From assembly GCA_017396895.1 (NCBI GenBank), contig JAFQKN010000074.1:1-57716 (forward strand): DNA of 57,716 bases, in the 5' to 3' direction. The notes below the pieces were generated by a model. The model saw nothing but the letters and a program-made list of their open reading frames with translations, had not been told where the DNA came from and made no database searches. Position numbers and translations under genes: made by a program. Origin of the DNA: Clostridia bacterium (GTDB lineage: Bacteria > Bacillota > Clostridia > Oscillospirales > Acutalibacteraceae). Below, piece by piece: positions 47,991 through 53,297 of the stretch. Positions within the stretch are counted from its first letter, which is position 1. Each line of letters opens with the position of its first letter.

Positions 47991-50291
47991 TTATTTCTGC
48001 ATTTTTGCCATGTCATTTTTACGGATCTCAACACGTCTGACTTTGCCGCTGATGGTCTTGGGAAGTTCATCTGCAAATTCCACGATTCGCGGATATTTAT
48101 AAGGTGCCGTATGTGTTTTGACGTATTCCTGCACCTCTTTTTTCAGTGCATCACTGCCAACCGTTCCTTTCACCAGGACAATCGTTGCCTTAACGATCTG
48201 TCCGCGCACTTCATCGGGAACCGGTGTAACTGCACATTCCAGTACATAGGGCAATTCCATGATAACACTTTCGATCTCAAAGGGCCCGATGCGGTAACCG
48301 GAAGATTTGATAACATCATCAATGCGGCCGACGTACCAAAGATAACCGTCTTCGTCCATCGTTGCCTGATCTCCGGTATGATAGTAACCGTCGTGCCAGA
48401 CTTCATTGGTCTTTTCTTCATCCAGATAATAGCCGATAAACAGTCCGCATGGAGCATTTTCCTTGGTACGGATGCAGATTTCACCCGTATCACCTGTTTT
48501 GCATTCATTGCCGTCGGGATCCAGAATCACAACGTCATAAAGCGGACTCGGTCTGCCCATGGAACCGATTTTCGGAGTTGAACCGACAAAATTTGCGATC
48601 GACAGCGTTGTTTCGGTCTGTCCGAACCCTTCCATGATGGTCAGGCCCGTTGCATTTTTGAACTGATTGAATACCTCGGGGTTCAATGCTTCACCGGCCG
48701 TTGTTGCGTATTCGATGGACGACAAGTCATACTTTGAAAGATCCTCTTTGATAAAGAACCGGTACATGGTCGGGGGAGCGCAGAACGTGGTGATATGATA
48801 CTTTGCAAACATCGGCAAAATATCTTCGGAACGGAATCTGTCAAAGTCATAGGTAAATACGGCCGCTTCACAGAGCCACTGTCCGTAAAGTTTGCCCCAC
48901 AGCGCTTTTCCCCAACCGGTATCGGAGATCGTAAAATGCAATCCGTTGGGTTTTACGTTGTGCCAATGTTTGGCTGTCGGATAATGTCCCAATGCATACT
49001 TATAAGAATGCGTTGCGATACGCGGATAACCGGTCGTACCCGAAGTAAAGAGCATCAGCATCGGATCATTGCCGCAGGGAGCGTTTTCGGTACGCAGGAA
49101 ATGCGTGCTGAAGCGTTCCATTTCCACGTTAAAATCGTGCCATCCGTCTTTCTTGCCGCCAACCAGAATTTTAAGCATTCCCGGGAAATTCACTGCGGCC
49201 TTTTCTGCTTCAGCCGCCACATCACCGTCTGCAGTGCATACGATCGCTTTCACTTTTGCGGCTTTATATCTGTAATCAAAATCATGTTCAACAAGTTGAT
49301 TGGTTGCGGGAATTGCGATCGCTCCGATCTTATGCAATGCGAGCATACAGAACCAGAACTGATAATGCCGTTTGAGCACCAACATGACCGTATCGCCTCT
49401 TTGGATGCCGAGCGATTCAAAATAGTTGGCAGTCTTTGCCGAATACTTTTTCAAATCACCAAAGGTGAATCTGCGGTCGGTTTTATCGTTTGCAACCCAC
49501 AGCATGGCAAGTTTGTCGGGTGTCTTTTCCGCGATGGCATCCACACAGTCAAACGCAAAATTAAACCGATCGGCATTTTTGAAGTCGATGCCGCTGAACA
49601 CACCGTTCTCATCATAGTAAGACGCAACAAATTGATCGGCAACGGTCGTTTCGGCAACGGTCGTATCAACCGTTCTCGCGGGTGTAAAGGGCATTTCGGG
49701 ATATTCCTCACTCACCTGTCCGTCTTGCGGATTGAGGACCACGGCATAAAACTCACAACCGCCTTCACTGACAGCGATCATACCGTGCGGGATCTGACTG
49801 TTATAAAAAATCGAATCTCCCTCATGAAGCACGTCTACGTGATTGCCGATCTGCACTTTCAATGCCCCTTTGACGATCACATCGAACTCCTGTCCGTTGT
49901 GTGAACTGAGTTTCAAGGGTGCTTGCTGTTCTTCAGGCAAAAAGGGGAAATTCACAAGGAAGGGTTCTGCCTGTTTATCTTTGAATTTGGGTGCAAGATT
50001 ATTATACACGACGCCGTGCTTTTTGACAATCTGCAAACCTTCCCCTTTCCTGGTAACGGCAAATGAGGTCAATGTGCTGCTTCTTCCCTCCAGCAAATCG
50101 ACAACCTCTACATCGCAGGCTTTGGCACACTTATAAATAAAAGTAAAACTGAAATCGGTTTCACCCTGTTCCAAAACCCGCAATTCATCGACAGACACAC
50201 CTGTGAGTTTCGCAAGTTCGGCTTGCGTATAGCCCTTTGCCTCACGCAGATCTTTGATTCTTCCTGCAACTTCTTTCAAACTGTAATCCAT
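47991..50291 (-). CDS. XRE-cupin-acyl-CoA synthetase fusion protein
   Basis: The 766-aa protein joins three parts. Residues 1-70 are an XRE helix-turn-helix (RIKDLREAKGYTQAELAKLTG). Residues about 125-190 are a cupin (HNGQEFDVIVKGALKVQIG, then GDSIFYNSQIPHG). Residues about 235-766 are an AMP-forming acyl-CoA synthetase with LFTSGTTGYPRIATHS, GFGQTETTL, YHTGDQATMDEDGY, GRIDDVIKSSGYRIGPFE and the catalytic Lys750 in PKTISGKVRR. The enzyme part resembles medium-chain acyl-CoA synthetases. XRE-cupin regulators are common as separate proteins; fusion to a ligase is unusual and suggests a sensor of its own substrate. A T-box leader precedes it. Confidence 0.88.
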   Translation of the reverse strand: MDYSLKEVAGRIKDLREAKGYTQAELAKLTGVSVDELRVLEQGETDFSFTFIYKCAKACDVEVVDLLEGRSSTLTSFAVTRKGEGLQIVKKHGVVYNNLAPKFKDKQAEPFLVNFPFLPEEQQAPLKLSSHNGQEFDVIVKGALKVQIGNHVDVLHEGDSIFYNSQIPHGMIAVSEGGCEFYAVVLNPQDGQVSEEYPEMPFTPARTVDTTVAETTVADQFVASYYDENGVFSGIDFKNADRFNFAFDCVDAIAEKTPDKLAMLWVANDKTDRRFTFGDLKKYSAKTANYFESLGIQRGDTVMLVLKRHYQFWFCMLALHKIGAIAIPATNQLVEHDFDYRYKAAKVKAIVCTADGDVAAEAEKAAVNFPGMLKILVGGKKDGWHDFNVEMERFSTHFLRTENAPCGNDPMLMLFTSGTTGYPRIATHSYKYALGHYPTAKHWHNVKPNGLHFTISDTGWGKALWGKLYGQWLCEAAVFTYDFDRFRSEDILPMFAKYHITTFCAPPTMYRFFIKEDLSKYDLSSIEYATTAGEALNPEVFNQFKNATGLTIMEGFGQTETTLSIANFVGSTPKIGSMGRPSPLYDVVILDPDGNECKTGDTGEICIRTKENAPCGLFIGYYLDEEKTNEVWHDGYYHTGDQATMDEDGYLWYVGRIDDVIKSSGYRIGPFEIESVIMELPYVLECAVTPVPDEVRGQIVKATIVLVKGTVGSDALKKEVQEYVKTHTAPYKYPRIVEFADELPKTISGKVRRVEIRKNDMAKMQK

Positions 50292-50329
50292 GTTCGCTGT
50301 CTCCTTTTATCTGAATATCCAATTTGAAT

Positions 50330-50613
50330 AAAACAAAAAACCCGTCTCAAAAGAAAACCTTTGAGACGAGTATGAAACCCGCGGTACCACTCAAATTACG
50401 GAAAAATATTCCGTCACTTTCCGGGCTCAAACAAGCCCTTTGCTTTTACGCAGCATTACGGAAGGAGTCTACTTGCATTCGCTTTCGGTCCTCCGACTCA
50501 GAAGGGATAAGTCATTGGAAAGATTCGCTGTTGTCTCGCACCAAAACGACAACTCTCTGTGAGTTACACTTTCCGACCGTCTTCATCACAGTCGTTTTGT
50601 GATATTCAAATTT
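50330..50613 (-). promoter_or_regulatory. T-box riboswitch with terminator, upstream of the fusion gene
   Basis: On the minus strand the leader contains the T-box sequence TTGAGTGGTACCGCGGG (near 50395-50379), the distal Stem I part CAGAGAG...GGTGCGAG (50560-50530), a Stem II with an AGTA turn (GAGTC/GACTC), and Stem III GGGCTTGTTTGAGCCC. The terminator is CTCGTCTCAAAGG...TTTGAGACGGGTTTTTT (50370-50335). Uncharged tRNA would bind and allow read-through into the synthetase gene. By position in the TGA-NNN-ATCCC pattern the specifier could be CTT (Leu), but I cannot fold it here; other codons such as GAC are possible. Confidence 0.9.
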
Positions 50614-50619
50614 GACATG

Positions 50620-50648
50620 ATTTTAGCACGTCATAGTGCAAAAGTCAA
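50620..50648 (-). promoter_or_regulatory. Promoter for the T-box leader
   Basis: On the minus strand TTGACT (50643-50648) and TAAAAT (50620-50625) are 17 bp apart, so transcription should start near 50613. The T-box gene is therefore a separate transcript from the ACT-MBL gene. Confidence 0.65.
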
Positions 50649-50672: not shown

Positions 50673-52109
50673 TTATGCATTGACAGAATAATCTTTTTTA
50701 AATCCGTGTGCTCCGAAGATCTGCCACGAACCGACACCGAGCCGACCGATGACTGCTTTTCTTTCCTCTGCACAAAGTTTGGGATCGGTATCAACGGAAG
50801 TCATCAATATCGGAGCATACTGATTATATGCTGCCTGTTCGGGGGTTAATCCATGCAGATTGATATAAATATCGCCGGTCAGAGCAATATGATGCGTATA
50901 GTCGATCAATACGATCTCTCCCGGCAAATGACCGCCTTTTCCCTCGTAGACCTCAAAATGCAATTCTTCGAAATCAAAAAAGCCGATCTGCGTAAGCGGT
51001 TGTGTCAGATGATCGACATTCGGCCATGGGGTTTTTATTTTTTTCGGATCGGTCGGTTCGTATGACGTAAGAATTTTACAGATGTTTATATACGGTCTGT
51101 GCAATGGATTCTTTTCCCGATAACCGTCATTTCCGAGATACTCATTTTGCAGGCAAAGAGCTGTTTTGGGACTTGCGATAACCTCATCGAACAACGGCAA
51201 CAATCCGCAATGGTCCACATCGGCATGGGTTACGAGCACCGTTTTTTTGATTTCGTTAAAATCGGGCAACACCTTGTGTATCACACCGAGCATCTCCTCT
51301 TTGTAGCAGGCATAGCCGCTGTCAACAAACAATACCCTCTCATTGCTCTTTATTATAATGGTATTACTGCCGCAAGGCGGTTCAATCAGAATGATCTGCG
51401 TATGCTCGGTTATTTTGTGGTTGCTGACTCTCGGCGCAAACGACGCGCCTTTTGAAGCACCGAGCAATTCTGCAAATTTACTGATGCTGTCAAACGTTCT
51501 GTAAGGTGACAAGCCTTTTTCATCAAGCGTTTGCATGGCAAGATTCACGTGCACCAACAATTCACGGCTTATTTCTTCCGACAGCCCCATGATCTGCGAC
51601 AAACCTATAACATAGGTATGATAAAAAATACTGTTATCATAAACCTTTGTTGAACTGTTATAGTTGATTACCCGCACTTTGCACAGTTTTTCGGCTTCCG
51701 CAAGAAATTCGGAGATCTTATCCATATCATCAACATACAAGCCCATTTTGAAGTATTGATAATCTGTTCCGTTCTCTTGTGAACTGATATAGGAAATATT
51801 GAAATTAAAACGGCTGATCAACGTCAGCACATTCGTAACACTGCCCGGGATATCCGCAAGACAGAATTCAATCAAAACAATTCCGGTTTTGCTGTCATTA
51901 TTTTGCAGATATCCGATCCTTTCAAGTTCAACATCCGCTTTTTCCAATTGCTCGCTCGTGCCTTCCGCATCAATAAATAGCGTGTGGGAATCAACAGCCT
52001 TGTTATAACTCACACGTGTGATATTTATGCCCAACGCAGAAAAACATTTGCTTGCCTTCAAAAAAGCACCTATATGATCCGGCATGGACGTGATATATGT
52101 CTTTTTCAT
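50673..52109 (-). CDS. ACT-domain plus metallo-beta-lactamase fusion protein
   Basis: The 478-aa protein starts at ATG 52109 (MKKTYITSMPDHIG), 6 nt after AAGGAGG. Two ACT-like modules (about 3-75 and 77-150) come first, the second with FCLADIPGSVTNVLTLISRF. Then comes a linker of about 80 residues and an MBL fold (about 235-450) with VTHADVDHCGLLPLF (the HxDxDH-like metal motif), and GKGGHLPGEIVL and LTGDIYI for further ligands. ACT domains bind amino acids; MBL hydrolases act on esters, thioesters or nucleotides. The combination suggests an amino-acid-controlled hydrolase (inference). It lies between ilvE and the T-box gene on the same strand. Confidence 0.82.
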   Translation of the reverse strand: MKKTYITSMPDHIGAFLKASKCFSALGINITRVSYNKAVDSHTLFIDAEGTSEQLEKADVELERIGYLQNNDSKTGIVLIEFCLADIPGSVTNVLTLISRFNFNISYISSQENGTDYQYFKMGLYVDDMDKISEFLAEAEKLCKVRVINYNSSTKVYDNSIFYHTYVIGLSQIMGLSEEISRELLVHVNLAMQTLDEKGLSPYRTFDSISKFAELLGASKGASFAPRVSNHKITEHTQIILIEPPCGSNTIIIKSNERVLFVDSGYACYKEEMLGVIHKVLPDFNEIKKTVLVTHADVDHCGLLPLFDEVIASPKTALCLQNEYLGNDGYREKNPLHRPYINICKILTSYEPTDPKKIKTPWPNVDHLTQPLTQIGFFDFEELHFEVYEGKGGHLPGEIVLIDYTHHIALTGDIYINLHGLTPEQAAYNQYAPILMTSVDTDPKLCAEERKAVIGRLGVGSWQIFGAHGFKKDYSVNA

Positions 52110-52130
52110 CTGCGGCCTCCTTATTTTCAA

Positions 52131-52271: not shown

Positions 52272-53297
52272 TTACATGATTTCTTCGATCCAGCCTTCGG
52301 GAGCAGGAAGTTTGCCCATCTGAATACCGGTGAGCGTATCATAAAGTTTCTTGGTAACAGGACCCATTTCCTGCATACCTGCGGGGAAGCAGATCTCTTT
52401 GCCGTGATCGACGATCTTGCCGACGGGAGAAATGACTGCCGCCGTACCGCAAAGACCGCATTCTGCAAAATCGGAGATTTCAGCCAGTTCGATCTCGCGT
52501 TCTTCGACTTCGAGTCCGAGATATTCTTTTGCAACGTACATCAGAGAACGGCGCGTGATGGACGGCAGAATGCTGTCGGACTTGGGAGTAAGCACTTTGT
52601 TGTCCTTGGTCACGAACAGAATGTTGGCACCGCCCGTTTCTTCGATCTTGGTGCGTGTGCCGGGATCAAGATAGATGTTTTCATCGAATCCGCAGTTGTG
52701 GGCGTCAACGATGTTATAAAGGCTCATAGCATAGTTAAGACCGGCTTTGATGTTGCCCGTTCCTTTAGGTGCGGCACGGTCAAGATCACTGATGCGAACG
52801 GTCAGAGGCTTTACACCGCCTTTGAAATAAGGGCCGACAGGGGTGCAAAGAATGCGGAACTGATATTCCGTGGCAGGTTTGACACCGATGACGGCATCCG
52901 AACCGAACATATAAGGACGCAGATAAAGCGTTGCACCCGAACCGAAGGGCGGAACAAATGCGGCATTGGCTTTGACCACTTCACGAACGGCTTCAATGAA
53001 GCGTTCTTTCGGGAACACGGGCATCTGCAAACGCTTGCAGGAAGCCTCCAGACGGTCTGCATTGAGGTCGGGACGGAAGCAGACGATGCGGCCGTCTTCC
53101 GTAGTGTAAGCCTTCAAACCTTCAAAAACGGTCTGGGCATACTGCAGAACACCTGCGCATTCACTGATGCATACCATAGGATCGGTGCTCAATGTGCCTT
53201 CATCCCATGCGCCGTTTTTCCAGTTGGACACAAAGCGGTAATCGGTCGGCATATAACCGAAACCGAGTTCACCCCAGTTGATATCTTTCTTTTCCAT
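52272..53297 (-). CDS. ilvE: Branched-chain amino acid aminotransferase IlvE
   Basis: The 341-aa protein carries the class IV transaminase fold: YAQTVFEGLKAY (about 53-64), the PLP Lys region GTGNIKAGLNYAMSL (about 182-196, Lys187), the conserved DPGTRTKIEETGGANI (about 212-227) and the C-terminal CGTAAVISPVGKI (phosphate cup). The length matches the type II IlvE group. It makes and breaks down Leu, Ile and Val with 2-oxoglutarate. Transcription starts from a consensus TTGACA-17-TATAAT promoter; no T-box is seen before it. Confidence 0.94.
   Translation of the reverse strand: MEKKDINWGELGFGYMPTDYRFVSNWKNGAWDEGTLSTDPMVCISECAGVLQYAQTVFEGLKAYTTEDGRIVCFRPDLNADRLEASCKRLQMPVFPKERFIEAVREVVKANAAFVPPFGSGATLYLRPYMFGSDAVIGVKPATEYQFRILCTPVGPYFKGGVKPLTVRISDLDRAAPKGTGNIKAGLNYAMSLYNIVDAHNCGFDENIYLDPGTRTKIEETGGANILFVTKDNKVLTPKSDSILPSITRRSLMYVAKEYLGLEVEEREIELAEISDFAECGLCGTAAVISPVGKIVDHGKEICFPAGMQEMGPVTKKLYDTLTGIQMGKLPAPEGWIEEIM

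Follow-up and report, generated by a model that had tools for sequence, protein, structure and literature searches.

The window considered here (the whole stretch of DNA analysed, 57,716 nucleotides: contig JAFQKN010000074.1 of the Clostridia bacterium draft assembly GCA_017396895.1) carries on its minus strand a T-box leader ahead of a gene for a fusion protein, in which an XRE-type helix-turn-helix (XRE-HTH) domain and a cupin domain are joined to an AMP-forming acyl-CoA synthetase. The specifier codon is that of isoleucine, homologous genes have leaders specifying isoleucine or valine, and a paralogue in the same genome lies below a valine T-box. We consider it very probable that the isoleucine T-box turns on the activation of 2-methylbutyrate, which is then carboxylated reductively and transaminated to give isoleucine, and that the valine-type paralogue does likewise for isobutyrate and valine.

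In the scheme that we favour, a shortage of isoleucine would leave tRNA-Ile uncharged, and the uncharged tRNA would pair with the AUC specifier and with the UGGU bulge of the leader, so that the terminator would not form and the synthetase would be made (a transcriptional T-box). The enzyme would convert 2-methylbutyrate, which is among the branched acids of the ruminant gut and would enter the cell from outside, to 2-methylbutyryl-CoA; VorABC with ferredoxin would turn this into 3-methyl-2-oxopentanoate by reductive carboxylation, and IlvE would form isoleucine from the oxoacid. The paralogue with a valine (GUC) T-box and alanine at residue 461 would serve the same route from isobutyrate to valine.

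The leader and its specifier

The relevant features, in their order along the minus strand, are the following.

50620..50648, minus strand: sigma-70-type promoter-like site, TTGACT-17-TAAAAT, with TG preceding the second hexamer (motif search)
50359..50598, minus strand: T-box leader, RF00230 at full length (92.2 bits, E 6.8e-21, model positions 1-219 of 219; found also in a whole-genome search)
50506..50508, minus strand: specifier codon AUC, isoleucine (Rfam alignment column)
50380..50389, minus strand: T-box sequence UGGUACCGCG, antiterminator bulge (sequence and Rfam alignment)
50340..50371, minus strand: intrinsic-terminator-like stem of 14 pairs, then a T run (motif search)
47991..50291, minus strand: XRE-HTH/cupin/AMP-forming acyl-CoA synthetase fusion of 766 amino acids (open reading frame and Pfam)

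An earlier note on this DNA had placed a T-box ahead of such a fusion, and both the assignment and its coordinates proved right: RF00230 is matched from end to end, and promoter-like site, T-box and terminator-like stem precede the 766-residue open reading frame in that order. The match falls 0.8 bit below the Rfam gathering cut-off (93), and a default scan lists nothing; among 20 relatives' loci searched with RF00230, nine exceeded the curated cut-off and 11 did not. Since this cut-off misses both the window and those 11 loci, routine annotation would overlook many such leaders. The predicted fold has a free energy of -107.5 kcal/mol (z -4.0), which none of 100 shuffles equalled. The promoter-like site is weak evidence taken alone (one observed, against a shuffle mean of 0.7), and both of its hexamers are kept across an alignment of 79 orthologous leaders. 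In the T-box bulge, the U would pair with the discriminator base A73. Judged by these sequence features, the leader is a genuine T-box. With the branched-chain T-boxes of RF00230 (those of ileS, ilv-leu and branched-chain amino acid transporters) it shares a Stem I with specifier, the AG bulge, the GGUG loop, UGGUACCGCG and the terminator, but it precedes the gene of an acyl-CoA synthetase, probably part of a route for scavenging acids, whereas their targets are a tRNA synthetase, a classical biosynthetic gene or an amino acid transporter.

In the Rfam alignment the AUC specifier lies six bases 5' of GAG, and the leader of ileS in the same genome (a gene named from its translation, not by profile) also reads AUC at the same spacing. 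A covariance search found eight T-boxes in this genome, and the genes downstream of them served as a check on specifier reading: UAC before tyrS, UUC before pheS and UGG before a trpB-like gene, with CUC (leucine) before a leuA-like gene resembling a family of the relatives (all named by eye from translations). The supposition of the earlier note that a branched-chain amino acid is sensed is thus borne out, AUC being an isoleucine codon. The close orthologues, called class A below, number 85 (84-90% identity); the codon is ATC in 83 of them, the other two being cut by contig ends. A leucine specifier, CUU or UUA, was rejected, because the bases preceding AUC vary between C and T among orthologues and AUC does not; that comparison came from a table with ATC in its search pattern, of which only the flanking columns were used. 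One T-box elsewhere, at positions 1501-1741 of locus L002 and ahead of an aspS-like gene (named by eye), reads AAC (asparagine) in the Rfam alignment.

Conservation of the leader among homologues

Homologues came from relatives' genomes and from 80 contig loci, and where a title names a source, it is a metagenome-assembled genome of ruminant gut and similar. Coverage of query residues 40 to 700 was required: of 166 hits 153 were kept, 140 of them unique and 133 of at least 700 amino acids. Besides class A, a second set of anchors (class B) has 55-64% identity to the window protein. The 133 distinct full-length fused proteins have leaders with an isoleucine specifier in 109 cases and a valine specifier in 17, leaving seven unread, two of which (L043 and L058) are cut by contig ends. 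No specifier for any other amino acid occurred among the 126 leaders that could be read, and the earlier note's expectation that the leader recurs before homologues has therefore held. Three assignments were made by hand (L031 and L147 as ATC, L058 as unreadable), and the T-box sequences of L127 and L147 are degenerate.

None of 14 stand-alone synthetases (about 550 amino acids, without XRE-cupin) has a T-box motif within 300 nucleotides; the leaders of these, and of 40 newly added loci used below, were judged by motif rather than by covariance model. In seven far relatives (42-49% identity; L149, L150, L152-L155 and L157) the N-terminal open reading frame ends at 182-187 amino acids and there is no T-box. 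A cupin domain over cut-off was found in L150, the only one of these that was profiled, and a separate N-terminal reading frame may possibly represent the ancestral state of the fusion. A class-level survey of 391 genomes gave a match at E <= 1e-190 in 176, either to the fused gene or to the ligase part alone.

The fusion protein and its probable substrate

All four domains of the protein exceed their Pfam cut-offs.

50097..50258, minus strand: HTH_3 DNA-binding domain, residues 12-65 (44.1 bits, cut-off 23)
49740..49910, minus strand: Cupin_2, residues 128-184 (37.7 bits, cut-off 27.2)
48042..49538, minus strand: AMP-binding plus AMP-binding_C, residues 252-750 (Pfam; best solved relative 3etc)

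The AMP-binding domain (PF00501) occupies residues 252-621 and AMP-binding_C (PF13193) residues 672-750. The closest solved sequence to the ligase is 3etc, the medium-chain acyl-CoA synthetase of Methanosarcina acetivorans (MacsMa), at 671.8 bits over residues 237-762 (next best, 377); the alignment is confined to the ligase part, with the XRE-HTH and cupin domains outside it. MacsMa adenylates C3-C8 acids and prefers 2-methylbutyrate (PMC10455477). The best NCBIfam model, also over the ligase part, is MbcS (NF047394), at 444.6 bits against a cut-off of 850, which makes the window protein a relative and not a member. MbcS is selective for 2-methylbutyrate and isobutyrate, and butyrate and isovalerate are poor substrates for it (PMC10026030). 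2-Methylbutyrate serves as an isoleucine precursor in the rumen, and isobutyrate as a valine precursor (PMC7356843). Because of these precursor roles and the substrates of MacsMa and MbcS, the isoleucine specifier points to 2-methylbutyrate, and the valine specifier to isobutyrate, as the likely substrate. Of the two acids that the earlier note had offered as examples, 2-methylbutyrate thus stands and isovalerate does not, since the specifier points elsewhere.

The enzyme might instead be broad, or meant for another acid (isovalerate, phenylacetate or butyrate), with the isoleucine T-box acting as a general starvation signal. The C3-C8 range of MacsMa would allow this, and other acids may be handled close by, as a TIM-barrel/AMP-ligase fusion accompanies a leuA-like gene below a leucine T-box near some homologues. 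Against it stand the poor performance of MbcS on butyrate and isovalerate and the restriction of specifiers to isoleucine and valine, which moreover follow the protein tree with two changes among 101 proteins (see below), so that we think this explanation quite unlikely.

Isoleucine and valine types

The genome has a valine-type paralogue (G000:C110), 59% identical to the window protein and with the specifier GUC in its T-box; the draft contains a tRNA-Val(GAC) with A73, which matches that leader. An earlier tree of 70 of the 133 proteins (48 of class B and 22 of the 85 of class A) was enlarged to 101 fused proteins: 48 of class B, 12 of the 85 of class A and 41 new ones from 40 further loci, new proteins being left out if they were more than 80% identical, shorter than 700 amino acids or from six loci repeating earlier genes. 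On this tree (60 isoleucine, 31 valine, 10 with no specifier), the distribution of the two types needs two changes; 500 shuffles of the valine labels needed 26.8 on average, and none as few as two. The valine leaders form two groups, of 27 and four, with the window genome's own paralogue among the four. At L122, L123, L132 and L134, isoleucine-type and valine-type genes stand in tandem. Lysine riboswitches (RF00168) were seen near three valine-type genes (L026, L027 and L032).

When the ligase columns were compared, both valine groups were fixed at one position for a residue that is almost absent from the isoleucine group.

48909..48911, minus strand: codon of Gly461 (glycine in isoleucine-type and alanine in valine-type enzymes, with one exception)

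In the 101-protein set, residue 461 is alanine in all 31 valine-type proteins and glycine in 59 of the 60 of isoleucine type. It sits in the motif T-G-W-[G/A]-K-x-x-W and aligns to GWVTG of 9g79, through which we take it to correspond to the acyl-pocket residue of acetyl-CoA synthetase that is Val310 in AcsSe and Ile312 in AcsMt. The pocket has four residues, Ile312 among them (PMC3477478). The second tryptophan of the motif, four residues beyond 461, is Trp259 of MacsMa when the numbering of PMC10455477 (YHTGD 431-435, Lys461) is laid on the alignment, and Trp259 is reported to be critical for substrate binding (PMC10455477). An alanine at 461 would leave less space, which fits a smaller acid; with two independent changes, the match amounts to a correlation rather than a test.

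Candidate pathway genes and the probable direction of the reaction

The three activities that the route calls for, an acid:CoA ligase, a 2-oxoacid:ferredoxin oxidoreductase and a transaminase, all have candidate genes in the genome (the window synthetase, the Vor-like genes and ilvE). Reading along one strand from the valine T-box, there follow the valine-type synthetase, a P-loop NTPase, a ferredoxin (small, with two cysteine clusters), VorB, VorA and VorC; VorB was identified by search and VorA, VorC, the NTPase and the ferredoxin by eye from translations, the domains being profiled on relatives. The NTPase, which is ParA-like (reverse strand of L165, 5590-6270; G000:C110), lies between the synthetase and the ferredoxin/VorB genes, and its cluster occurs near 20 of 35 class-B anchors. 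Of the same 35 anchors, 16 (on 13 loci) have a VorB-like gene nearby, 13 VorA, 10 VorC and 11 ilvE; neighbours were clustered over up to 8 kb per side, often less, and tandem genes count their neighbours twice.

A profile search of the 90%-complete draft gave no match for ilvC or ilvD, though all 14 control genomes were positive for each, and for ilvB only a match below cut-off. With no match for ilvC and ilvD, the branched oxoacids must come from elsewhere. More widely, of 41 genomes that have the fused gene 5 gave ilvC over its cut-off, compared with 32 of the 57 that lack it (Fisher p 7e-6, with no correction for relatedness); five genomes with fragments only (G002, G007, G010, G015 and G020) were put in the group without the gene, which works against the result. 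The suggestion of reductive carboxylation in the earlier note has accordingly gained support, from the Vor-like and ilvE genes near many relatives' T-box-synthetase genes, the Vor row after the genome's own valine-type paralogue, the lack of ilvC and ilvD matches, and the use of 2-methylbutyrate and isobutyrate by the nearest characterised relatives.

The same observations bear on two other possibilities. The synthetase might, like MbcS, make the branched acyl-CoA that primes the synthesis of branched-chain fatty acids, the T-box then signalling that the amino acid otherwise used as a source of primers is scarce. MbcS is after all the nearest NCBIfam model, below cut-off as it is, and FabH uses what it makes (PMC10026030); the acyl-CoA could even feed both routes. 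Against primer supply stand the ferredoxin and VorB/VorA/VorC-like genes that follow the valine-type paralogue, the ilvE genes near class-B anchors and the draft's want of ilvC and ilvD matches, and on these genes, with FabH and lipid genes outside the search, we judge it unlikely. Running the pathway oxidatively, as a fermentation of amino acids to branched acids with a gain of energy, seems to us very improbable. Vor enzymes can work in either direction, and many anaerobes employ them in oxidative catabolism, but a T-box switches on when its amino acid is lacking, the opposite of what catabolism would call for, energy is not usually conserved through an AMP-forming synthetase, and the absence of ilvC and ilvD matches also speaks against it.

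Points that weigh against the proposed isoleucine route

Several observations sit less comfortably with the proposed route from 2-methylbutyrate to isoleucine. Five of the 133 fused genes have upstream sequence and no T-box, 10 of the 101 leaders in the larger tree set are unreadable, and a third paralogue in the window's own genome (L120, G000:C112; 59% identity) has no T-box leader. Directly 3' of its specifier the window leader has C, where the majority of orthologues have A. No tRNA-Ile was among the tRNAs found in the draft. As the draft is 90% complete, the missing ilvC and ilvD are no proof. VorB relatives occur in 70 of 98 genomes, in many cases where the fused gene is absent, so that Vor alone is no marker. 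In the flanking sequence available, none of 80 class-A anchors has a Vor gene nearby: the window gene shares its genome with Vor and is not, as far as seen, in a Vor operon.

Others concern residue 461. One isoleucine-type protein, L033 (found again as L218 in genome G047), carries Ala461, as does L234, which has no readable leader. Position 72, outside the ligase, separates the types nearly as well (proline in 17 of 17 valine-type and 3 of 109 isoleucine-type proteins). At least one column like 461 appeared in 16 of 40 control clade pairs; with that and only two independent switches between isoleucine and valine, a statistical claim for the residue was dropped.

A possible second level of control

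Between the -10 hexamer and Stem I lies a short conserved sequence.

50599..50613, minus strand: 15-mer AAATTTGAATATCAC, at the transcript start (leader alignment)

It has at most two mismatches in 75 of the 81 close orthologues with enough sequence, and its best match in class-B leaders has at least four mismatches in 40 of 40. The HTH region of the protein is itself highly conserved (mean column conservation 0.91 in 83 close orthologues). The 15-mer is a candidate operator for the protein's own XRE domain, or else a 5' RNA element. The genome contains its 13-base core once exactly and at 12 further places with a single mismatch (one for the reversed pattern); in spite of this excess a regulon was rejected, since the seven of these 12 places that were checked all lay within mechanically called open reading frames of at least 100 amino acids. 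Also rejected was a long-range helix between the 15-mer and TATTCAAATT, a stretch that lies beyond the terminator, because the 5' arm is nearly fixed and the 3' arm varies without covariation; class-B leaders show no such 5'/3' repeat above shuffles (mean 6.1 versus 5.7).

We offer only tentatively the further idea that the specifier codon names the acid, the sensed tRNA and the acyl pocket having changed together (isoleucine and Gly461 for 2-methylbutyrate, valine and Ala461 for isobutyrate), with the XRE-cupin half as a second switch acting on the 15-mer, so that the gene would be expressed only if the amino acid were lacking and the acid present.

Neighbouring genes in the window and in relatives

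Two further genes of the window lie upstream, on the same strand.

52272..53297, minus strand: ilvE, branched-chain aminotransferase (NF009897 and TIGR01123 over cut-off)
50673..52130, minus strand: protein with ACT and metallo-beta-lactamase-fold domains, between ilvE and the T-box gene (Pfam)

The proximity of ilvE remarked in the earlier note is therefore real, with the ACT/metallo-beta-lactamase gene intervening. Of 80 class-A anchors, 19 have a member of the latter's cluster nearby, and its product is perhaps a hydrolase responsive to branched-chain amino acids. A fusion of a TIM barrel with an AMP-forming ligase lies near 16 of the same 80 anchors, a leuA-like gene near 14 and ilvE near two. 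The fusion, in which the TIM barrel is xylose-isomerase-like, stands beside the leuA-like gene (L100:4121-6601 and relatives; L084:2756-4144). Leaders of the leuA-like gene read leucine by eye (CTC A CCGC G GAG), and at some loci they lie upstream of the isoleucine T-box gene. The two genes are perhaps a leucine arm. A route to leucine by chain elongation was rejected: the leuB- and leuC-type matches, adjacent on one contig, are below cut-off and ambiguous.

Relation to known systems and significance

The pathway has long been known biochemically, and control by T-boxes is likewise a known kind. The synthesis of isoleucine and valine from 2-methylbutyrate and isobutyrate by rumen anaerobes (work of Allison, Robinson and Peel, 1966-1971, cited in PMC7356843) is the same chemistry as that proposed here; what is added is the naming of candidate genes and of a control that senses tRNA. 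MbcS of Staphylococcus aureus serves branched-chain lipids, and its abstract mentions no T-box (PMC10026030). In the literature searched, which did not extend to the surveys Vitreschak 2008 and Gutierrez-Preciado 2009, we found no T-box preceding an acyl-CoA synthetase, nor paralogues under isoleucine- and valine-coded control, and 'acyl-CoA' is absent from the main texts, so far as available, of three T-box papers (PMC2494555, PMC7778990 and PMC3766115).

The range of T-box targets would thereby be widened to the scavenging of acids, and the codon in the leader would let the acid used be predicted. For the rumen anaerobes, the making of branched-chain amino acids from branched short acids gets a concrete candidate set of genes: ligases, Vor, ferredoxin and ilvE. 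As for the organism itself, its draft genome seems to be without the usual isoleucine pathway, and this gut bacterium may well rebuild its isoleucine from 2-methylbutyrate that it probably scavenges.

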